Assembly (NCBI RefSeq): GCF_021206925.1
Contig: NZ_JAJPRF010000004.1
Span: forward strand, 62,001 to 126,000
Reading direction: 5' to 3'
DNA from: Rhodoflexus caldus
GTDB taxonomy: Bacteria > Bacteroidota > Bacteroidia > Cytophagales > Thermoflexibacteraceae
Length of the DNA: 64,000 bases
A program made the translations under genes and the position numbers. A model generated the notes under the pieces. That model was given only the letters and a program-made list of their open reading frames with translations, had not been told where the DNA came from and did no database searches. Positions 17,639 through 28,004 of this stretch are shown piece after piece. How positions within the stretch are numbered: position 1 is the first letter of the stretch; each line of letters begins with the position of its first letter.

Positions 17639-19570
17639 ATGGGACAGTATCGGACGACCGCAGAATTAGGCCAATTGCGAAAATTTGAAAAAATACCGGT
17701 AGAAATTTACCCCGATGCGGTAGAAGCATCTAAAGCTGTTGCACAGGAAATTGCGGCACTTATCAAAATCAAACAAAAGAAAGGAGAAATGGCCGTTTTG
17801 GGGCTTGCCACAGGCTCAACACCCACCAAAGTATATGGAGAGTTAGTGCGGATGCATCGTGAAGAAGGGTTGAGTTTCTCCAATGTCATTACCTTCAATC
17901 TGGACGAGTACTACCCCATGCAGCCCGACTCATTGCAGAGTTACGTCCGCTTCATGAACGAATATTTATTTGACCACGTGGACATTCCGCGTGAAAACAT
18001 CAACATCCCCGACGGCACTATCCCCATGGAGCAGGCCGATGCCTTTTGCCACGAATACGAACGGAAAATTACGGCTGCCGGAGGAATTGATATTCAGTTG
18101 TTGGGAATTGGCCGCACAGGACACATCGGCTTCAACGAGCCCGGTTCTTCCAAAGAATCAACCACGCGGATGGTTACTTTAGACCGCCTAACCCGCATTG
18201 ATGCGGCAAGCGACTTTTTCAGCGAGGAAAATGTGCCGCGCCGTGCCCTTACGATGGGTGTCGGTACCATTTTAAGAGCGCGCAAAATTATCCTGATGGC
18301 ATGGGGCGAGGGCAAAGCCAAAATGATTCGCAGTACGGTAGAAGGCAACATGACCGAGATGATTCCCGCTACCTTTCTGCAATCGCACAGCAACAGTGTG
18401 GTGGTGTTGGATGAGGCTGCTGCCGCACAACTGACCCGCATCAAGACCCCTTGGCTGATTGGCCCCTGCCGTTGGAACGACCCGCAACTCATCCGCCGTG
18501 CCGTAGTGTGGTTGTGCCAGCAAGTAAACAAGCCCATTCTGAAACTCACCGACAATGATTACACCGAACACGGCATGAGCGAGTTGGTAACCGAATACGG
18601 CCCCGCCTACAATATCAATATTCAGGTTTTCAATCAGTTGCAGCATACCATCACCGGATGGCCGGGAGGCAAACCCAATGCAGACGACAGCCATCGCCCC
18701 GAACGTGCCAAACCTTTCCCTAAGCGGGTGGTTATTTTCAGCCCCCACCCCGACGATGACGTAATTTCCATGGGTGGCACACTGCTCCGATTAGTTGACC
18801 AAGGACACGATGTGCATGTAGCCTATCAAACTTCGGGTAATATTGCCGTGTTTGATGACGATGCCATTCGCTTTGCCGACTTTGTAAACGACATCAGCAA
18901 ATCCATCAACCTGCAAGGCGATGCGGTAAAAAATTGGTTCAATACGATTGTGGATTTCATCCGCAACAAACAACCGGGCCAAGTAGATATTCCTGAGGTT
19001 CAGATGATTAAGGGTATGATTCGCCGCGGAGAGGCCAAAGCGGCCTGCCGTTATTGTGGCGTACCCGACAGCAACATGCACTTCCTCGACCTGCCGTTCT
19101 ACGAAACCGGTCGCGTCAAGAAAAACCCCATAGGCGAAGCCGATATTCAGATTACGGTGGACTTGCTGCAATCCGTTAAACCGCACCAAATTTATGCAGC
19201 AGGCGACCTTTCCGACCCGCACGGCACACACCGCGTGTGTTTGCAAGCTGTTTTTGAAGCCTGCAACCGTCTGAAAAACGAAAAATGGATGAAAGACTGC
19301 TACATATGGCTCTATCGCGGTGCATGGCAAGAGTGGGACATTGACCAGATAGAAATGGCAGTGCCCATCAGCCCGCAGGAGTTGCTGCGCAAGCGCCGTG
19401 CTATTTTTAAGCACCAGTCGCAAAAAGACCGCCCACTGTTCCCGGGTTCCGATGCCCGCGAGTTTTGGCAGCGCGCCGAAGACCGCAACCGTGCCACTGC
19501 CGAAATGTACGACAAACTTGGCTTGGCTGAATATGAGGCCATTGAAGCTTTTGTGCGCTATAAATTATAG
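17639..19570 (+). CDS. nagB: Glucosamine-6-phosphate deaminase fused to a PIG-L-type deacetylase domain
   Basis: 643 residues. Residues ~20-280 are NagB: sugar-phosphate loop GLATGSTP, catalytic LDEYY (residues 88-92) and GIGRTGHIGFNEPGS; this part deaminates glucosamine-6-phosphate to fructose-6-phosphate. Residues ~360-640 form a PIG-L/LmbE-like domain with HPDDD at 370-374 and LDLPF, a metal-dependent N-deacetylase fold. The fused pair is a known Bacteroidota arrangement; it may pair deacetylation of an amino-sugar derivative with its deamination. The C-terminal activity is inferred from fold. It precedes rplU by about 95 bases without overlapping. Confidence 0.9.
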   Translation: MGQYRTTAELGQLRKFEKIPVEIYPDAVEASKAVAQEIAALIKIKQKKGEMAVLGLATGSTPTKVYGELVRMHREEGLSFSNVITFNLDEYYPMQPDSLQSYVRFMNEYLFDHVDIPRENINIPDGTIPMEQADAFCHEYERKITAAGGIDIQLLGIGRTGHIGFNEPGSSKESTTRMVTLDRLTRIDAASDFFSEENVPRRALTMGVGTILRARKIILMAWGEGKAKMIRSTVEGNMTEMIPATFLQSHSNSVVVLDEAAAAQLTRIKTPWLIGPCRWNDPQLIRRAVVWLCQQVNKPILKLTDNDYTEHGMSELVTEYGPAYNINIQVFNQLQHTITGWPGGKPNADDSHRPERAKPFPKRVVIFSPHPDDDVISMGGTLLRLVDQGHDVHVAYQTSGNIAVFDDDAIRFADFVNDISKSINLQGDAVKNWFNTIVDFIRNKQPGQVDIPEVQMIKGMIRRGEAKAACRYCGVPDSNMHFLDLPFYETGRVKKNPIGEADIQITVDLLQSVKPHQIYAAGDLSDPHGTHRVCLQAVFEACNRLKNEKWMKDCYIWLYRGAWQEWDIDQIEMAVPISPQELLRKRRAIFKHQSQKDRPLFPGSDAREFWQRAEDRNRATAEMYDKLGLAEYEAIEAFVRYKL

Positions 19571-19601
19571 GCCGATTTCTTCAAAAACTTTTCCGGGCGG
19601 C

Positions 19602-19633
19602 TTTGGCAGTTCGGAATAATTGGGCTAATTTTG
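19602..19633 (+). promoter_or_regulatory. Promoter of rplU-rpmA (TTTG, 20 bases, TAATTTTG)
   Basis: TTTG at 19602-19605 and TAATTTTG at 19626-19633 are separated by 20 bases, matching the Bacteroidota primary sigma promoter TTTG-N19/20-TAnnTTTG. Transcription would start near 19638, giving a leader of about 28 bases before rplU. Confidence 0.75.
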
Positions 19634-19665
19634 CCCCACTTTTTCCATTCATAAAAACGAATAAG

Positions 19666-19977
19666 ATGTACGCAATTGTAGAAATCGCCGGACAACAGTT
19701 CAAGGTAGAAAAAGACCGTTTCATCTACACGCATCGTTTGGACGCAGCCGAAGGTGATGTGCTCACTTTTGACCGCGTATTGCTGGTAGACAACAACGGC
19801 ACCGTAAACGTTGGAACTCCGACAGTATCGGGTGCGAAAGTAACAGGTAAAGTGCTTGCCCATGTAAAAGGCGAGAAAGTGGTGGTTTTCAAGAAAAAGC
19901 GCCGCAAAACTTATGTGAAGCGCAACGGACACCGTCAGCAGTTTACCAAAGTACTCATTGAAGGAATTAACGCATAA
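19666..19977 (+). CDS. rplU: 50S ribosomal protein L21
   Basis: 103 residues. Begins [19 protein letters not shown] and ends KVLIEGINA, the normal L21 pattern; the [18 protein letters not shown] strand and the [12 protein letters not shown] tail that contacts 23S rRNA are visible. The ATG at 19666 is used rather than an in-frame ATG at 19603, which would overlap the promoter. rpmA follows 20 bases downstream, the usual order. Confidence 0.97.
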
Positions 19978-19997
19978 GTTTAAACTCTGATACGACT

Positions 19998-20258
19998 ATG
20001 GCACACAAGAAAGGGGTAGGTAGCTCCAAAAACGGTCGCGAATCGGAAAGCAAGCGCCTCGGCGTGAAAATTTTCGGTGGCCAGCAAGTGATAGCCGGCA
20101 ACATTATCGTTCGCCAGCGCGGTACCAAGCATCATCCGGGCAAAAACGTAGGTATTGGTAAAGACCATACTCTGTTTGCACTGGTAGATGGCACTGTAAC
20201 TTTTAAGCGCAGCAAAGACCGCTCTTTTGTATCGGTTGAGCCTGCAACACAAGGCTAA
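19998..20258 (+). CDS. rpmA: 50S ribosomal protein L27
   Basis: 86 residues, [16 protein letters not shown] followed by [22 protein letters not shown], the conserved L27 N-terminal and core sequence. L27 places its N-terminus near the peptidyl transferase centre. No cleavable N-terminal extension of the Firmicutes type. Same transcript as rplU; terminator follows. Confidence 0.98.
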
Positions 20259-20286
20259 TCAAAGCAGCATTGTTCATGTTAAATGA

Positions 20287-20318
20287 GCCATTCCGAATTT
20301 TTTCGGAGTGGCTTTTTT
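20287..20318 (+). terminator. Terminator after rpmA
   Basis: Stem GCCATTCCGAA / TTCGGAGTGGC (20287-20297, 20302-20312, one G-U pair) with a TTTT loop, then TTTTTT. A classic Rho-independent terminator 28 bases past the stop. Confidence 0.92.
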
Positions 20319-20410
20319 GTTTGGTTTAAACGCGAATTGTGGGGCCTTATTGAAAAATTTATATTCTTTGCCTTAACAGTCAGGGGCTGCGGCGTACAAC
20401 ATACAACTGC

Positions 20411-20485
20411 TAACAGGACACTATAAACAAGCACAGGAGGTTTGCGAAAAATGCTTTATGTAAGTTATTGATAAACAAGCTATAT
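20411..20485. repeat. Dispersed intergenic element, copy B
   Basis: Counterpart of 10531-10600, sharing TATAAA, AAGCxCA, the exact core TTTGCGAAA and an AT-rich tail (TAAGTTATTGATAAACA here). Lies between the rpmA terminator and the terminator of the 94-residue gene. Confidence 0.4.
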
Positions 20486-20537
20486 GTAAAATACTTGCAT
20501 ATGCTACTGCAAATATTAGCGCCCTTAGGTTCAAATG

Positions 20538-20573
20538 AAAAAGGCACGAAACACAAATAATATGCTTCGTGCC
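20538..20573 (-). terminator. Terminator of the 94-residue conserved gene
   Basis: Perfect 8-bp stem GGCACGAA / TTCGTGCC (20543-20550, 20566-20573), 15-base loop. On the minus strand it is followed by TTTTT (complement of 20538-20542). It sits 24 bases downstream of that gene's stop. Confidence 0.75.
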
Positions 20574-20596
20574 CAAGTTTTTATAAGCAGAGATAT

Positions 20597-20881
20597 TCAG
20601 TATTCTATCCGCAGAATAGCATTAACAGGAATTGTGCGTCCCCCTTTGAGGCTCACGTGGTTATCATCCGACTGCCAGATGGTGGTCAGCAATTGACCTA
20701 CTTGACCATCTGCCATCTGACAAATAATTTTTACTTTGTGTTGATAAATATTCCCTAAAGCTGTTGCCTTTTGAATTTGAGATTTTCGGTCAGCACGCAA
20801 TCTGCTATCCTGCAACACATCGTGTTGCGCAAACATATAAGGATTAACAACTTCTTTTGCTAAAATGACAGTTGGGTTCAT
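20597..20881 (-). CDS. Small conserved Bacteroidota protein of unknown function
   Basis: 94 residues with no signal peptide. The C-terminal block (ALGNIYQHKVKIICQ, LLTTIWQSDDNHVSLKGG, TIPVNAILRIEY) looks like a small beta-barrel and resembles many uncharacterised Bacteroidota proteins of this size. Nothing catalytic is seen. It is a stand-alone gene flanked by non-coding DNA, with its own terminator downstream. The nucleotide pattern and terminator support a real gene. Confidence 0.6.
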   Translation of the reverse strand: MNPTVILAKEVVNPYMFAQHDVLQDSRLRADRKSQIQKATALGNIYQHKVKIICQMADGQVGQLLTTIWQSDDNHVSLKGGRTIPVNAILRIEY

Positions 20882-21147
20882 AAGTGTTGATGGTTTAAGG
20901 TAAAGTACTAAAATTGAGGTAAGGTTTCAATTACAGTTTTCTGCGCCCTTTCATAAAAAAGACGACACAAGACCTTGGTTAGTAAAGAGAGTCATTGCAT
21001 TAATTTACATAAAAATTCTGCAAAAGGTTGTCCGATTCAGAAAAATTAACAATTGGCAAACAATAAAAAACTGCCGGATTTGAAGTAAACCCGGCAGTTA
21101 TACAAAAGCAAAAGAGGTATAATTGCAATAATTCCGTATGCTTATTG
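20882..21147. other. 266-base gap with the fadN terminator
   Basis: AT-rich region between the 94-residue gene and the beta-oxidation gene. Holds the terminator at 21065-21099 for the latter. No coding frame with support was seen. Confidence 0.5.
21065..21099 (-). terminator. Terminator of the beta-oxidation gene
   Basis: 9-bp stem AACTGCCGG / CCGGCAGTT (21069-21077, 21091-21099). On the minus strand it is followed by TTTTTT (complement of 21065-21070). Lies about 50 bases downstream of the minus-strand gene ending at 21148. Confidence 0.85.
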
Positions 21148-23553
21148 TTAGTTACGGACGGTTTTGCCTTTGAAAAGCAGCCCGTGGATGCGCTCTAATG
21201 TTTTAGGCTCACCGGAAAGCGACAGGAAGGCTTCGCGTTCCAAATCGAGCAAGTACTGCTCGCTGACCATTTGCGGATAGCTCAGGTCGCCGCCGCTCAT
21301 CACGTAAGCAATTTTCTTGGCAATTTTTGCATCGTGTTCGCTGATGTAGTTGCCGTAGCGCATACTTACGATACCTGTTTCAAACAGTGCCAGCGCGGTT
21401 TTACCCAGTACTTTAATGTCTTTGCGTTGTACGGGTTTGGTATAGCCTGCTTCTGCAAGTACAATAGCTGCCCGCTTGGCATCAGCCAATACATGCGAAC
21501 GGTGCATGGTAATACTGTCGGTCGGGCGAATGTACCCCAACTCTTTGGCTTCGTGCGCCGAGGTAGAAACTTTGGCCATGGCAATGTTCATAAAGAACTC
21601 TTGCAGGCGGTTCAGTTCCACGTCGCCTTTGGCGTAGCTGTCCGATGCACGCAGGGTCATTTCTTTGGTGCCGCCGCCTGCAGGAATCAAGCCAACACCT
21701 ACTTCCACCAAGCCCATGTAGGTTTCTGCATGTGCCTGAATGTGGTCGGCGTGGAGTTGGAGCTCGCAGCCGCCACCGAGTGCCAGCCCCGAAGGTGCGG
21801 TTACTACGGGCACAGATGAGTAACGGGCACGCATCATCGTATTTTGGAAAGCAGCAATAGAGAAGTTGATTTCGTCAAATTCGCCGTTGCTGGCTGCCAT
21901 AAACAGCATGGCAAGATTTGCACCTGCCGAAAAGTTTGCCCCGTCATTACCGATTACCAAGCCGCGGAAGTTTTCTTCCGCTTTGGTAATAGCCGTATTG
22001 ATACCTTCCAACACCTCTGCGCCCATGCTGTTCATTTTGGTATGGAACTCTAAGCCCAAGATGCCATCGCCGAGGTCAAACAGGGTAGTGCCCGAGTTGC
22101 CCCATACTTTGTTGGTAGGGCGGAGGTTGTCCAGAATGATAAAGCCTTCGCTGCCCGGGATGACTTTGTAGGATTTAGTCGGGATGTCGTAGTAGTGGCG
22201 GATGCCTTTTTCTACCTTGTAGAACGATTCGTTGCCACCTGCCAGCATGTCATATACCCACTGTGCAGGTTTTTCATTGGCGGCTTCCATTTTGGCAACC
22301 GTTTCGCGAACGCCGAGCAAGTCCCATGTTTCAAACGGGCCGAGTTCCCAAGCAAAACCGGCAGCTACGGCTTGATCAATGCGGTAGAGTTCATCAGCGA
22401 TTTCGGGGATGCGATACGAGCAGTATTTGAACAGGTCGTAGAAAGTAGCGCGATAAAATTCGCCTGCTTTATCGTTGCTATTAACCAATTTCGGAATGCG
22501 CAACTTAACGTTGTCAATATCTTTTACCGCACCTATGGAGTCAAATTTAGGCTTGGTTTGCGGCTCATATTCAAAAGTTTTGAGGTTCAGGGTCAGAATT
22601 TGGCTTTTGCCGTCTGCGCCTTTTACCTTCTTAAAGAAGCCCTGACCTGTTTTATCACCCAACCACTTGCGGTCGTAAAGTTCTTTGACAACACGCGGCA
22701 GTTTGAAGGCATCGCGGCTTTCGTCGTGCGTAAGGGCAGCGTAGAGGTTGTTAGATACGTTTACGGTCGTATCCAGACCTACCACATCGCTGGTGCGGAA
22801 GGTTGCCGACTTGGCTCGCCCGATGATAGTGCCTGTCAGTGCATCCACCTCATCAACGGTCAAGTCAAAAGTATCCAGCTTGTGCATGGCCGACATCATG
22901 CTGTAAACACCGATGCGGTTGGCAATAAATGCGGGAGTATCTTTACACAATACGGTTTCTTTGCCCAGATAAAGCGCCCCGTAGTGCATCAGGAAATCCA
23001 CAATATCAGGGTTGGTTTTCGGGCCGGGGATAATTTCCAGCAGTTTCAGATAGCGCGGCGGGTTGAAGAAGTGCGTACCGCAAAAGTTTGCCTGAAAATC
23101 ATCGCTGCGGCCTTCGCACATGAGCGCCATAGGAATGCCCGATGTGTTGGAGGTAATGAGCGTGCCTTTTTTGCGGAATTTTTCTACCTGCTCAAATACC
23201 TGCTTTTTGATGTCTAAACGCTCAACAACGGCTTCCAGCACCCAGTCGCAATCGGCAATTTTTTTCATATCGTCCTGAAAATTGCCGGTTTGAATAAGGG
23301 AAGCGACTTTGGAATGATACACCGGCGAAGGGCTGGATTTGAGCGCTGCCGCTAATGCGTCGTTTACAATGCGATTGCGCACTGCGGGATGCTCAACGGT
23401 CAGCCCTTTTGCCCGCTCAGCCTCGTTGGGTTCGGCAGGCACAATATCTAACAGGAGCACTTCCACGCCAATATTGGCAAAATGACAAGCGATGCGTGAG
23501 CCCATCACGCCGGAGCCTAATACGGCTACTTTTTTGATGCTGCGGTTTTTCAT
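21148..23553 (-). CDS. fadN: Bifunctional 3-hydroxyacyl-CoA dehydrogenase / enoyl-CoA hydratase (FadN-like)
   Basis: 801 residues, length near the B. subtilis FadN. N-terminal NAD-binding domain: VLGSGVMGSRIACHFANIGVEV (glycine-rich loop), with GTHFFNPP carrying the catalytic histidine. C-terminal crotonase domain: FSAGANL (oxyanion loop), GGGCELQLHAD and LVEVGVGLIPAGGG carrying the two hydratase glutamates. It performs the hydration and dehydrogenation steps of fatty-acid beta-oxidation. No thiolase or acyl-CoA dehydrogenase gene follows in the window. It ends an operon after MarR and DUF2147 genes with a 50-base gap. Confidence 0.92.
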   Translation of the reverse strand: MKNRSIKKVAVLGSGVMGSRIACHFANIGVEVLLLDIVPAEPNEAERAKGLTVEHPAVRNRIVNDALAAALKSSPSPVYHSKVASLIQTGNFQDDMKKIADCDWVLEAVVERLDIKKQVFEQVEKFRKKGTLITSNTSGIPMALMCEGRSDDFQANFCGTHFFNPPRYLKLLEIIPGPKTNPDIVDFLMHYGALYLGKETVLCKDTPAFIANRIGVYSMMSAMHKLDTFDLTVDEVDALTGTIIGRAKSATFRTSDVVGLDTTVNVSNNLYAALTHDESRDAFKLPRVVKELYDRKWLGDKTGQGFFKKVKGADGKSQILTLNLKTFEYEPQTKPKFDSIGAVKDIDNVKLRIPKLVNSNDKAGEFYRATFYDLFKYCSYRIPEIADELYRIDQAVAAGFAWELGPFETWDLLGVRETVAKMEAANEKPAQWVYDMLAGGNESFYKVEKGIRHYYDIPTKSYKVIPGSEGFIILDNLRPTNKVWGNSGTTLFDLGDGILGLEFHTKMNSMGAEVLEGINTAITKAEENFRGLVIGNDGANFSAGANLAMLFMAASNGEFDEINFSIAAFQNTMMRARYSSVPVVTAPSGLALGGGCELQLHADHIQAHAETYMGLVEVGVGLIPAGGGTKEMTLRASDSYAKGDVELNRLQEFFMNIAMAKVSTSAHEAKELGYIRPTDSITMHRSHVLADAKRAAIVLAEAGYTKPVQRKDIKVLGKTALALFETGIVSMRYGNYISEHDAKIAKKIAYVMSGGDLSYPQMVSEQYLLDLEREAFLSLSGEPKTLERIHGLLFKGKTVRN

Positions 23554-23603
23554 TTCTTTTGGTTGGTGATTGGTCGTCGTATCTAATTGAAAGTAAATAA
23601 AAC

Positions 23604-24035
23604 TTACTGATGCTTGTACCAGTTTTGTGTGCGGTAAAGGAAAGCGATATAGCCGCGTACTTTCAGCACGCCGTTTTCAATCCACAACTTGCAATCATAA
23701 ATTTTGCCGTTGTTGGGGTCTAAAATATCGCCACCTTTAAATTCGTTGCCTTTCTTTTCCAGATTGCGGATGATAACCATGCCGATGACTTTTTTACCCT
23801 TGCGGTCGTCGGTGCACTTGTCGCAAACGGGGTCGGGGGTTTCATTGGCGCGATAGAAAATTTCGGTAATTTTACCAAAATACTTATCGCCTTGCTTGTA
23901 AATTTCTACAATAGAACGCGGTTTCCCGTCCTCGTCATCAATGGTTTTCCACTTGCCGACTATGTCTTGGCCAAATGAGGCGTTGCTCAAAAGCCAAATG
24001 ATGCAAACAGCAAAGCCCAAAAAACGGATTTTCAT
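23604..24035 (-). CDS. DUF2147 exported protein
   Basis: 143 residues with a signal peptide (MKIRFLGFAVCIIWLLSN, cleavage near SFG). The mature part starts DIVGKWKTIDDEDG, then IVEIYKQGDKYFGKI, CDKCTDDRKGKKVIG and a final WYKHQ, the DUF2147 pattern. A CDKC pair of cysteines could form a disulfide. Small periplasmic beta-barrel-like protein of unknown function. Starts one base after the marR stop. Confidence 0.85.
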   Translation of the reverse strand: MKIRFLGFAVCIIWLLSNASFGQDIVGKWKTIDDEDGKPRSIVEIYKQGDKYFGKITEIFYRANETPDPVCDKCTDDRKGKKVIGMVIIRNLEKKGNEFKGGDILDPNNGKIYDCKLWIENGVLKVRGYIAFLYRTQNWYKHQ

Positions 24036-24036
24036 A

Positions 24037-24531
24037 TTATTTGACGGCTAAAGATTCTTCGTCTAAGTCTAATTCGAGCGTAGGCATTTTGTAAGACTCT
24101 ACCACCTCATTGATTTTATCAATGACCTCGAAAAATACCTGCATTTTTTCTTCGCTAACCGCTTCCCGCACTCGTTTGTTGAACTCTTTTACCACCTGAC
24201 GTGAGGCTTCCCGCTTAATTTTACCCTCTTCGGTCAGGCAAATCAGCACTTTTCGGCGGTCTTTTTCGTCCTGTTGGCGATAAATCATCCCCTCTTCCTC
24301 CATTGTTTTCAGCATACGGCTTAGGCTGCGGGCTTCCATGCCCATCAAGGGTGCAATTTTGGTTGCGGGTGTGCCGTGTTCTTTGTCTATGTTTAGCAAC
24401 ACGAAACCGTTTGAGTGGGTAATACCATGCTCCGCCCCCAGCACGTTATACATTTTCGCTATTGCCAGCCATGTTGCCTTTACACTGAAATCAACGGATT
24501 GCTTTTTCTTATCGTTGTCTTGCTTACTCAT
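24037..24531 (-). CDS. MarR-family transcription regulator
   Basis: 164 residues with the winged-helix pattern: helices to LLNIDKEHGTPATKIAPLMGMEARSLSRMLKTMEEEGMIYRQQDEKDRRKVLICLTEEGK (recognition helix around RSLSRML; wing DEKDRRK). The ATG at 24531 is used; a TTG at 24558 would lie inside the -7 element. It heads a unit with DUF2147 and a beta-oxidation enzyme, so it may sense a fatty-acid-related ligand. Long final helix EEKMQVFFEVIDKINEVV fits MarR dimerisation. Confidence 0.88.
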   Translation of the reverse strand: MSKQDNDKKKQSVDFSVKATWLAIAKMYNVLGAEHGITHSNGFVLLNIDKEHGTPATKIAPLMGMEARSLSRMLKTMEEEGMIYRQQDEKDRRKVLICLTEEGKIKREASRQVVKEFNKRVREAVSEEKMQVFFEVIDKINEVVESYKMPTLELDLDEESLAVK

Positions 24532-24555
24532 CGCTATACCACCGTGTATTTCTGC

Positions 24556-24563
24556 CAAAAGTA
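24556..24563 (-). promoter_or_regulatory. -7 element of the marR unit (TACTTTTG)
   Basis: On the minus strand TACTTTTG fits TAnnTTTG, 24 bases before the ATG at 24531. The element lies over the alternative TTG start and thereby argues for the ATG. No clear -33 element. Confidence 0.6.
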
Positions 24564-24625
24564 AGCAAAAATATTATGCTTGCATACTATTTATGAATTT
24601 TTTCTTGTGAAAATTGGCGGCAGTT

Positions 24626-27013
24626 TTATTCTCCGGCTTTGAAAAACAAGGTTGTTATGGAAGGAGTACCTGCTTTTCCCGATGAAGCATTGGTAAACAG
24701 GATTTGTCCGACAGACGACAGGCGCATAATGACATTATCCGATGTGGTCATAATGCTGATTGGCACGGCAGTAGTGCGCAACTTCGCCCAATAGAATTGT
24801 CGGTAGTCGCCTTCGTACAAGGGTGTTTTGTGTTGATGAAGGCCTATTGGTATGCCCTTGGTTTGCCCTTGGGGGAAAGGGCCGGCAGCAAATGCACTTA
24901 CTTCCTGCAATGACTCAGCGTATGAAAAAGCAATTTCTTTACCTGTGTACTGAATACGCAGCACGCCCGCATCGGATAGCGCATAGCTGATACTCCGAAC
25001 AGCGGCAGATTCAGGATAACGGAAGGTAATTGTTCCTTGCTGTATATCGGCTGTTCCAACGGGTGCTTCACTCTGCGCTATGCCACGGATTTTCAGCGGC
25101 TTACCTTGCACCTTGATTGCCGATATGTACCCCGAAGAATGGAGGCTGACAACAACATCGCCTCCGATAAGTTCCCAGCCGTCGTTTGTTTTCTGAGGTA
25201 CAGCCGTTTCTGCAAACTCGCCAAGCAGTAGTTGCGGGATGTTGCGCTCTTGTGTCGTAATCGGGAAACGCCAAGTGTAAATTTCGCTGCCCATGGGCGA
25301 TAAGGCTGTTACCGCCAACAGGTCGCGCTCCTGCCAATTGGCGGGCAAATTGAGCAGAAGTTTGTCCTTTACTCCCGGCACAACGTTTGGCGGAAATGCA
25401 GTCCCGCTTTCAACTATCTGCGGATTAACAGCCCCCCCTAACGGATTGGCAATGTCCACAAGTTGCCAGATAAATTTGCAGCGGCTCAAATTGGTAAAAG
25501 TAAACTTGTTATAGACCGTCAGCGTTCCATTAAAAAGCCCGTCGGCAGTTTCACTGCTCAATTGCAGGGGCGACCACAACTCCGCAACAGCATGAAAAAC
25601 AGGCTTGGGGTTTCTGTAAGCGTTTACGATGCCTCCATTGGCAGAAGGCTTTTCAATGGGCTTTCCGTCCTCTTTTACAAGTTCGTCGGCAAAAGATGAG
25701 AGAAACAGTCCCATTTGTTTGCCGTTATTTACCGATTGCCATGTTTTTGTAAAAACGGCATCATTAATGGACTGAATCGGTAGCTCTTCCACATCGGCGG
25801 GACTGATGACAGGCCGTCCTTCGAGTAATTTGCTGCGGCTGTCGGCAGCCATCAGAATGACACTTGGATGGTTTAAGTCGCGGCGGATGGTGGCAGCAGG
25901 CGCACTGCCTTCTGCAACCGTGTAAATCACATACAAACCAAGTGAGTCGCAAACATCGAGCAAATGCGCATCGGGCTGATAGAACGGGTTATATAATGCA
26001 TTGGCATTCAGTTCTTTGAGCAACAGGCCGTCTAATTCGCTGATTTGCCTGCCGACACTGATACCGCTTTCGTGCCAATGCGCCCGATATTTTACCCCAC
26101 GCAACTTCATTTTTTTATCGTTAATATAAAGCCCGTCATTTTTGACCGCAACGGTTCTAAACCCGACAGTTTGGGCAGTTCGGTGCAGTACTTTGCCTTG
26201 CGAATCTTGCAATTCCGTTACTAAACGGTAGCGCTGCGGAAGTTCATCAGACCATGCCTGCACGCCCGAAAATGTTGTCGTAAACTGGAACCCTGCGGTG
26301 TTATCGGCAGATATTGGCTTGATATTGCTCTGCAAAAGAATGCCCGCTGTTTTCCCTTCCATATCTTGCAGATAGGCAGCTATTTGCACATTGTCCTTTT
26401 TGTTGATGTATATCTGCGCTGTCAAATAGCCGCCGGCTTGCGTTTCAACGGTCATACCCGTGATATGTACAGGCGGTAATACTTCCAAATATACAGGCTT
26501 GTAAATGCCGCCAAACAGCCACATGGGTACTTTGCCCTGTGCGATGGCAGCATTGGTACTGCGTTTGCTCACCGCAACTTCCAACTCATTGGTTGTGCCC
26601 AATTTTAACAGTGAGGATACGTCAAAAACAAAGCGTTCGTAACCTCCCTGATGCGTACCGAGATTAACCCCGTTCAGTTTGACTTCTGCGTCTGTCAGAA
26701 CGCCCTCAAATACGAGATTGATATGCTTGTCTTGCCAAGTCGGCAATGCCATAAACTGATGCTTGTAAACAGCTTTTTCATCAGACGACACAGTACCGAA
26801 GCTGTATTCGCCAAAACCTTCGGTTTCCCAACAAGCAGGCACGTTGATTTTTTGCCAACTGCCCGATTTTCTGCCTTTATCTATTTGAAAATCCCACTGT
26901 GCAGGGTTTTCTCTGTCTGTGCCTGAAAGAAAGTGGATTTGTGAGGTTTGAGCAATCAGTTGCAGGCTGAGCACCAGCCAAAGCAGGCAACAACTGCCAA
27001 GCAATCGGAACAT
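24626..27013 (-). CDS. Glycoside hydrolase family 2-like protein with a degenerate catalytic domain
   Basis: 795 residues. Signal peptide (first ~22), then a sugar-binding domain (INVPACWETEGFG, VFEGVLTDAEVKLNG, GGYERFVFDVS) and an immunoglobulin-like domain, as in GH2 beta-galactosidases. The barrel starts normally (GFRTVAVKND, KLRGVKYRAHWHESG, residues ~285-320; LNANALYNPFYQPD; NHPSVIL at 381-387), but the residues normally reading WSxGNE after that point are LMAADSRS, and no nucleophile SExx block follows; the barrel resumes as GLFLSSFADEL and GGIVNAYRNPKP. The catalytic domain is only ~180 residues. Probably a carbohydrate-binding pseudoenzyme; stop 24626. Confidence 0.8.
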   Translation of the reverse strand: MFRLLGSCCLLWLVLSLQLIAQTSQIHFLSGTDRENPAQWDFQIDKGRKSGSWQKINVPACWETEGFGEYSFGTVSSDEKAVYKHQFMALPTWQDKHINLVFEGVLTDAEVKLNGVNLGTHQGGYERFVFDVSSLLKLGTTNELEVAVSKRSTNAAIAQGKVPMWLFGGIYKPVYLEVLPPVHITGMTVETQAGGYLTAQIYINKKDNVQIAAYLQDMEGKTAGILLQSNIKPISADNTAGFQFTTTFSGVQAWSDELPQRYRLVTELQDSQGKVLHRTAQTVGFRTVAVKNDGLYINDKKMKLRGVKYRAHWHESGISVGRQISELDGLLLKELNANALYNPFYQPDAHLLDVCDSLGLYVIYTVAEGSAPAATIRRDLNHPSVILMAADSRSKLLEGRPVISPADVEELPIQSINDAVFTKTWQSVNNGKQMGLFLSSFADELVKEDGKPIEKPSANGGIVNAYRNPKPVFHAVAELWSPLQLSSETADGLFNGTLTVYNKFTFTNLSRCKFIWQLVDIANPLGGAVNPQIVESGTAFPPNVVPGVKDKLLLNLPANWQERDLLAVTALSPMGSEIYTWRFPITTQERNIPQLLLGEFAETAVPQKTNDGWELIGGDVVVSLHSSGYISAIKVQGKPLKIRGIAQSEAPVGTADIQQGTITFRYPESAAVRSISYALSDAGVLRIQYTGKEIAFSYAESLQEVSAFAAGPFPQGQTKGIPIGLHQHKTPLYEGDYRQFYWAKLRTTAVPISIMTTSDNVIMRLSSVGQILFTNASSGKAGTPSITTLFFKAGE

Positions 27014-27063
27014 AGGACGGCGGATTTTGATGCAAACAATTTAGGTTTTTTGCAGGAAAACAC

Positions 27064-27091
27064 AAAAGCCCCCGCAAATGCAGAGGCTTTT
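27064..27091 (-). terminator. Terminator of the ATP synthase operon
   Basis: 12-bp stem AAAAGCCCCCGC / GCAGAGGCTTTT (two G-U pairs; 27064-27075, 27080-27091) with a 4-base loop, followed on the minus strand by GTGTTTTCC. It lies 26 bases after the stop of atpG. Confidence 0.85.
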
Positions 27092-27116
27092 GAAAATGTA
27101 AGATATAAGCTTAGGT

Positions 27117-28004
27117 TTATCCGTTTGCAAGCGCTTCGGCACCACCCACAATCTCGAGGATTTCTTTGGTAATGGCAGCCTGACGCGAACGGTTGTAAAT
27201 CAGACGCAGTTCTTTGAGGAGCTCGCCTGCATTTTCGGTTGCTTTGTCCATGGCAGTCATACGTGCGCCGTGTTCGGAAGCGTTGGACTCGAGCAATGCT
27301 TTATAGAACTGAATTTTCAGTGTTTTAGGCAATAACTCGGCCACAATGCTTTCCTTATCAGGCTCGTAAATAAAGTCGGTAGATGATTCGGCAACAACCG
27401 GACGGTCATCGGCAGGTTGTAGCGGCAAATAAGGAACCGTACGTACAATTTGCGTCGCAACGTTCTTAAACTCATTGTAAACCAACTCTACGGCATCGTA
27501 TTTTTTGCTCAGGAAGCCCTCCATTGCGAACTCCGCCGCCAGTCGTACTTGGTCGAAGGAAAGTTTACCGAATAATTCGGTAAAGTCCTCTACCAATGGC
27601 ACGTTTCTGCGTTTGAAGAAATCGCGCCCTTTGCGGCCAACAGCCAAAACAGTTACGCGACCGGCTTTGTGCTGTGCGGCATATTTGCCGTTCATCAGCG
27701 CGCTGCATGCCTTGATTACGTTCGTATTAAAGCTCCCGCACAGACCACGGTCAGAAGTAATGCAGACAATCAGTACGTTTTGTACGGTGCGACTTTCAGA
27801 GAACGCATTAGCCGATTGTTCTTCAACGGTAGCCATAATATTGGTCAGGATACCTTGAAGGCGTTGCGAATAGGGACGCATTTGGATAATGGCATCTTGT
27901 GCGCGGCGTAGCTTAGCAGCAGCCACCATTTTCATCGCTTTGGTGATTTGCTGCGTAGAGCGCACCGAATTGATTCTATTTCTTACTTCCTTTAAACTTG
28001 GCAT
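27117..28004 (-). CDS. atpG: F1 ATP synthase gamma subunit
   Basis: 295 residues. N-terminal MPSLKEVRNRINSVRSTQQITKAMKMVAAAKLRRAQ and C-terminal DKATENAGELLKELRLIYNRSRQAAITKEILEIVGGAEAL are the two helices of the rotor stalk; ITSDRGLCGSFN is the internal signature. Drives the conformational cycle in the F1 head. Last gene in the cluster, followed by a terminator. In most bacteria atpD and atpC follow here; they do not. Confidence 0.97.
   Translation of the reverse strand: MPSLKEVRNRINSVRSTQQITKAMKMVAAAKLRRAQDAIIQMRPYSQRLQGILTNIMATVEEQSANAFSESRTVQNVLIVCITSDRGLCGSFNTNVIKACSALMNGKYAAQHKAGRVTVLAVGRKGRDFFKRRNVPLVEDFTELFGKLSFDQVRLAAEFAMEGFLSKKYDAVELVYNEFKNVATQIVRTVPYLPLQPADDRPVVAESSTDFIYEPDKESIVAELLPKTLKIQFYKALLESNASEHGARMTAMDKATENAGELLKELRLIYNRSRQAAITKEILEIVGGAEALANG

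Follow-up and report, generated by a model that had tools for sequence, protein, structure and literature searches.

A GH2-derived protein without its catalytic glutamates appears to be a conserved pseudoenzyme, restricted to one genus as far as searched

On the minus strand of the window (the whole 64,000-nucleotide stretch of DNA analysed here), positions 24626–27013 hold a gene of evident GH2 ancestry, and the question raised by this locus is whether its product still cuts sugars, is the remnant of a dying gene, or has been kept for some other task. The gene is a single open frame of 795 codons with no internal stop, and we describe it as that of a GH2-derived pseudoenzyme of 795 residues, given the open frame, matches to PF02837 and PF00703, a partial match to PF02836, and orthologues in genomes G003 and G002 of the same genus (G000 is the genome of the window and G001 the fourth genus member). 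In our reading of the sequences, the window protein is a conserved GH2 pseudoenzyme confined to one genus as far as searched, because its catalytic glutamates are lost, its sequence is under selection, and a search of the three genomes turned up no separate copy of the missing half of its barrel.

In a Pfam scan, three GH2 families were matched in order and above their cut-offs, these being the PF02837 jelly-roll at residues 51–178 (4e-14), the PF00703 Ig-like domain at residues 188–286 (2.4e-7), and, in part only, the PF02836 barrel, for which profile positions 1–76 of 302 were matched and nothing further. The first two matches bear out the preliminary description, in which the sugar-binding and Ig-like parts had been called clear. 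Pfam and the alignment of relatives together place the jelly-roll (GH2_N) at residues 23–182 (26468–26947) and the Ig-like domain at residues 183–288 (26150–26467), all coordinates in this paragraph being on the minus strand. Ahead of these, a hydrophobic leader ending in LIAQ-TSQ was read by eye as a Sec-type signal peptide (residues 1–22; 26948–27013) with putative cleavage near AQ-T, and the protein is thus probably exported, putatively to the periplasm. The first half of the barrel, near full length in the alignment, spans residues 289–388 (25850–26149), presumably strands 1–4 (the strand numbers are our assumption from the alignment), and contains a conserved block at residues 320–365 (25919–26056) that is 74% identical between the window and G002. 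Arg393 (25835–25837) takes the place of the acid/base glutamate, as judged from the ungapped alignment after NHPS, within a collapsed second barrel half of 74 residues (389–462; 25628–25849) from which the nucleophile column is deleted. Next comes a region resembling LacZ domain 4 (residues 463–590; 25244–25627), recognised by alignment and by a PF16353 match at E 0.0055 that lies below its cut-off. The shortened C-terminal domain (residues 591–795; 24629–25243) may be a remnant of Bgal_small_N; PF02929 is matched in the relative L005 and unmatched here, and the domain has 205 residues versus a mean of 239 in 48 relatives. Structure prediction from a three-row alignment was unusable (mean pLDDT 34.1).

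Among NCBIfam models, the BT4156-type exo-β-1,4-galactosidase (NF049891) was the best family by far, with 384.5 bits (E 9.5e-115) and a best stretch at residues 13–389, a score that falls far below the curated cut-off of 1700. The domain order is that of the relative L005, and what sets the window protein apart is that both catalytic glutamates and most pocket residues are gone and that the second barrel half and the C-terminal domain are shortened. BT4156 itself is a periplasmic enzyme acting on pectic galactan side chains (PMC8002723). Moreover, a search of solved structures at E 0.01 gave matches to 123 distinct sequences, and LacZ and other solved GH2 enzymes can be aligned over the jelly-roll, the Ig-like domain, and the opening strands of the barrel. 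In the best 60 of the 123 matches, the top-scoring stretch stops at residue 361–368 of the query, and in the two alignments shown no stretch beyond it exceeds 0.4 bits.

The active site appears to be missing. We aligned the window protein and its G003 and G002 orthologues with 49 relatives from outside the genus, with columns named from L005; these 49, whose frames were chosen by BLAST, are part of 100 distinct extra-genus matches and comprise 30 of the 81 from the order search, drawn mostly from the top scores, together with every one of the 19 that the class search added. The acid/base column holds Glu in 49/49 relatives, Arg in the window and G003, and Asn in G002, so that Asn-Glu of the relatives (49/49) is answered by Ser-Arg, Ser-Arg, and Thr-Asn. 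The preliminary description had the block after NHPSVIL replaced, which is what we found (MAADSRS stands there), and the substitution is unambiguous because no gap lies between NHPS and the acid/base column. Likewise, the nucleophile block that it had failed to see is absent, the column being Glu in 49/49 relatives and a gap in all three genus members. In sum, both glutamates are present in 49/49 relatives versus 0/3 members of the genus. The two L005 glutamates align with Asn-Glu and the later Glu of solved β-galactosidase 6s6z, and their identity as the catalytic pair is supported by this alignment with such solved enzymes. A regular-expression motif count, which picked up 47 of 50 loci (not L081, L088, and L092), found both motifs in 45 of the 47; L082 (ATEL for PTEF) and L086 (Lys after Asn-Glu) escape the pattern and have both glutamates in the alignment. 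Comparison with GH2 members, suggested beforehand as a check, thus strongly supports the loss of the active site at the level of sequence, and cleavage by the GH2 mechanism has very probably been lost in the window protein.

The losses extend to the rest of the pocket, for whose named residues (the jelly-roll-loop Asp, the His of NRH, the His of SHYP, Glu379, Trp383, and Trp507) we assume the roles of their LacZ counterparts. With residues given for the window, G003, and G002 in that order, the jelly-roll-loop Asp (49/49 relatives) is Pro, Pro, and Asp; the His of NRH (48/49) is Arg in all three; and the His of SHYP (49/49) is Phe, Phe, and Leu. In L005 numbering, Glu379 (49/49) has become Thr, Thr, and Gln; Trp383 (49/49) Gly, Gly, and a gap; Trp442 (41/49) Ala, Ala, and Asn; and Trp507 (49/49) Ser, Ser, and Pro. 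Both the His and the Tyr of KHY (49/49) are deleted in all three, and the His after the nucleophile (49/49) is Glu, Glu, and His. Retained throughout is the His of NHPS (49/49 and all three). Because these presumed sugar contacts are lost, galactose is unlikely to be bound in the old pocket. The earlier proposal of a sugar-binding or structural role therefore stands only in part: a retained non-catalytic role is strongly supported by purifying selection, sugar in the old pocket does not agree with the lost pocket residues, and the protein may bind a glycan elsewhere on its surface, bind another protein, or play a structural part.

This bears directly on the idea that the protein binds galactan or another sugar without cutting it, in the manner of chitinase-like lectins, to which we give a small but real share of the probability. 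Pseudoglycosidases are a known kind (PMC7828330), and the jelly-roll, which is termed the sugar-binding domain, is well kept. Moreover, SusD matches occur at 10 places in the genome (11 stretches in all), which makes glycan uptake likely, and about 5 kb away lies a frame resembling glucosamine-6-phosphate deaminase (17639–19570, plus strand; 643 residues), putatively a fusion of such a deaminase with an LmbE-type deacetylase. Against sugar binding, the residues erased from the pocket include those that would hold a sugar and not only those that would cut it, and, by eye, no SusC/D or glycosidase gene is found among the adjoining frames. None of the three Pfam-scanned neighbours of the gene is of a carbohydrate type. 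Of the seven neighbours scanned beside three relatives (from 29 listed frames), four are of such a type: an esterase and an apiosidase-like protein at L096, and a β-helix protein and a GH43 protein at L097. The other three are a peptidase-S15-type protein and an unmatched protein at L096 and an oxidoreductase at L095.

The three neighbours, all on the minus strand, are a MarR-type regulator (24037–24531; PF01047), which follows directly downstream after 94 bases and is adjacent in G002 and G003 as well, a DUF2147 protein (23604–24035; PF09917), and a FadB-like 3-hydroxyacyl-CoA dehydrogenase/enoyl-CoA hydratase (21148–23553; PF02737, PF00725, and PF00378). We considered the MarR/FadB linkage, kept in G000, G002, and G003, as a clue to function and rejected it; the linkage says little here because the MarR–DUF2147–FadB row is also present in G001 without any GH2 relative. 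In G001, what we take to be a crotonase-type gene (L041, 101–976) lies directly upstream of that row. Upstream of the GH2-derived gene is presumably an atpG-like gene in the window and G003, and in G002, where MarR is downstream, a gene that we take to be acetolactate-synthase small-subunit-like. A terminator-like hairpin with a 13-pair stem (27063–27092, minus strand) lies between the atpG-like gene and the GH2-derived gene, and is weak evidence because the scan gave six such sites versus 5.0 in shuffles. The Bacteroidota promoter pattern had four matches in the window (2.4 expected) and none upstream of the GH2-derived gene; Rfam and tRNA searches returned nothing, nor did a tandem-repeat search of 19000–28000. 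Separately, a 94-residue frame (20597–20881, minus strand), flanked by the FadB-like gene and by frames resembling ribosomal-protein genes, is possibly a real small gene.

Placement of the nucleophile is less certain than that of the acid/base, as Asp407, Glu409, and Glu410 come near it in an alignment that runs ungapped, by eye, from the Trp425 anchor. Such acids, present near the former nucleophile strand in both the window and G003, are what would speak for a protein that is still an enzyme, whether through relocated acids or through another reaction. We find this improbable, since in G002 the three places are taken by Ala, His, and Val and the acid/base column, ungapped after NHPS, is Arg or Asn.

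The barrel itself has been lost unevenly. By our domain borders it comprises 174 residues versus a mean of 234 in 48 relatives (L049, cut by a contig end, is among the 49 and was left out of the length and invariance comparisons), which matches the roughly 180 residues given beforehand, though the proper yardstick is the 234 of the relatives and not the 302 of the profile. The first half has 100 residues (111 in relatives), and the second has 74 versus a mean of 123, being shorter by about 50. Taking as invariant those positions conserved in at least 95% of the 48 relatives, we found that all three orthologues keep 33/49 in the jelly-roll, 9/11 in the first Ig-like domain, 15/40 in the first barrel half, 4/30 in the second, 5/12 in domain 4, and 7/25 in the C-terminal domain. 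Here, window–G002 identity is 19% in the second barrel half versus 53% (range 38–65%) across 819 relative pairs with comparable overall identity, and in the first half it is 57% versus 64%, inside the 51–77% range of such pairs.

Orthologues with the same architecture and truncation occur in G003 (92% identity; 91.7% unrounded) and G002 (48%), and a record met in a genome-contig scan (L032), identical to the G003 contig in length and coordinates, was counted as the same one and not as independent evidence. Among 59 genomes of relatives, 26 had some match, with whole-length matches only in the genus (G003 and G002) and no match found in G001, where the gene is therefore dispensable. At the family level, matches occur in six of 13 genomes, and those in the three genomes from other genera are distant GH2 proteins. 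At E 1e-35, the order search gave matches in 71 of 390 genomes (84 matches, three in the genus and 81 outside), and for 79 of the 81 the open frame reaches at least 922 residues; the two short exceptions are in G203 (644 residues, cut by a contig end) and G296 (463 residues, with a stop). The latter (G296:C2:3174319-3175443) is a BT4156-type relative with an open stretch of 463 residues and one in-frame TAA, perhaps a pseudogene or an assembly error. In the class, 20 of 395 genomes match (23 matches), and the 19 new ones all have frames of 923 residues or more. Scans of viral contigs gave one partial relative (L092) in the first and none in the second. Since the extra-genus frames have 922 residues or more, bar the two exceptions, the form of about 795 residues appears confined to this genus as far as searched, with the order and class searches run at E 1e-35 and at most two first-look candidates scored per genome, so that truncated forms with weaker scores or lower ranks may have escaped.

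The window gene and its G003 counterpart differ by 115 synonymous and 68 non-synonymous changes without gaps, which corresponds to a dN/dS of 0.155 (bootstrap 0.113–0.209) for one species pair. Because dS exceeds 2 in the comparisons with G002, which are weak, the selection estimate is that of the single pair G000–G003. By domain, the ratio is 0.069 for the jelly-roll, 0.075 for the barrel remnant, 0.270 for the first Ig-like domain, 0.161 for domain 4, and 0.250 for the C-terminal domain. In 1000 neutral simulations at 0.21 substitutions per site, stops averaged 15.3 with a minimum of four, versus none observed, and identity reached at most 66.5% versus the 91.7% observed. The window protein is under purifying selection. 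Constraint is partial, because the gene evolves faster than FadB (dN/dS 0.047 for G000–G003) and the second barrel half keeps so few invariant positions. For the other neighbours, dN/dS is 0.036 (MarR) and 0.164 (DUF2147), and the DUF2147 gene thus evolves at about the pseudoenzyme's rate, unlike the adjoining MarR and FadB genes. In a FastTree phylogeny, the window, G003, and G002 proteins cluster together with support 1.0 on a long stem, as would be expected from a loss of constraint; the printed 0.96 substitutions per site is only part of this stem because the midpoint root falls on it.

A decaying pseudogene that is still open by chance would account for the faster evolution relative to MarR and FadB and for the absence in G001, but is very improbable, as no stops (about 15 expected) or frameshifts are seen, dN/dS is far below 1, and the frame is kept in three species. 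A dying gene or an assembly error was set aside because orthologues of 92% and 48% identity share the domain layout and the frame is stop-free with that dN/dS. Least credible of all is a split enzyme completed by another gene, as in α-complementation, for although the cut lies roughly at the half-barrel border, the missing half was found neither above noise in G000, G002, and G003 (best E 0.45) nor in other frames at the locus. No other match to the GH2-barrel family at E 0.001 was found in the 3.96-Mb genome of the window.

Elsewhere in the family, in another genus (G007), a full-length LacZ-type GH2 protein (L044, 10009–13953) is encoded close to the same MarR gene, on the opposite strand. 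We do not treat it as the same gene, given the opposite strand, an intervening 213-residue frame, and the other subfamily. Its nucleophile column is Asp and a later Trp column is Ser, these being Glu and Trp in 21/21 other aligned GH2 proteins (by eye), and it keeps the acid/base Glu. Like the window protein, it lacks the nucleophile Glu; unlike it, it has a full-length barrel, other domains, and only about 28% identity, and carries a point change where the window protein is truncated. It is possibly a second, independent loss of function, and it leaves our weighing of the readings for the window protein unchanged.

For the window protein, the account we lean towards, with somewhat better than even confidence, is that of a partner-binding platform. 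Here, descent from a BT4156-type exo-β-1,4-galactosidase would have led to an exported, probably periplasmic pseudoenzyme in which the first half-barrel still folds as a unit with the jelly-roll and the Ig-like domain. This folded remnant would serve as the platform, with the jelly-roll and the half-barrel block of residues 320–365 as its conserved faces, and these faces would hold a periplasmic partner, either a protein or a polymer, without turning it over. Given the pLDDT of 34, both the fold of the remnant and the exposure of the conserved block at the surface are inferred. Only tentatively do we suggest that the second half of the barrel was dismantled to a stub within a working protein while the first half remained as an outer scaffold for the new partner-binding function, so that this GH2-derived binding protein would have a fold intermediate between a closed barrel and an open half-barrel.

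Known pseudoglycosidases include YKL-39 (GH18), klotho (GH1), and CyRPA (GH33), which resemble the window protein in their glycosidase descent, lost catalysis, and retained function, and differ from it in coming from other GH families and from eukaryotes (PMC7828330). The window protein appears to belong with this kind, being of glycosidase descent with its catalytic residues lost and being kept by selection. In YKL-39, klotho, and CyRPA the whole barrel or propeller is retained, whereas in the window protein half the barrel is cut down. Among the papers listed in searches of the open-access literature, we saw no GH2 pseudoenzyme; the pneumococcal GH2 enzyme BgaA is reportedly an enzyme with further functions.

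For annotation, this means that labelling by best match could turn the sole GH2-barrel protein detected in this genome into a β-galactosidase. More broadly, pseudoenzymes reveal what new uses an enzyme fold is put to after catalysis is lost, and here whole enzymes and what appears to be a truncated, selected non-enzyme may be compared within one subfamily, in which the loss is so far seen in one genus.
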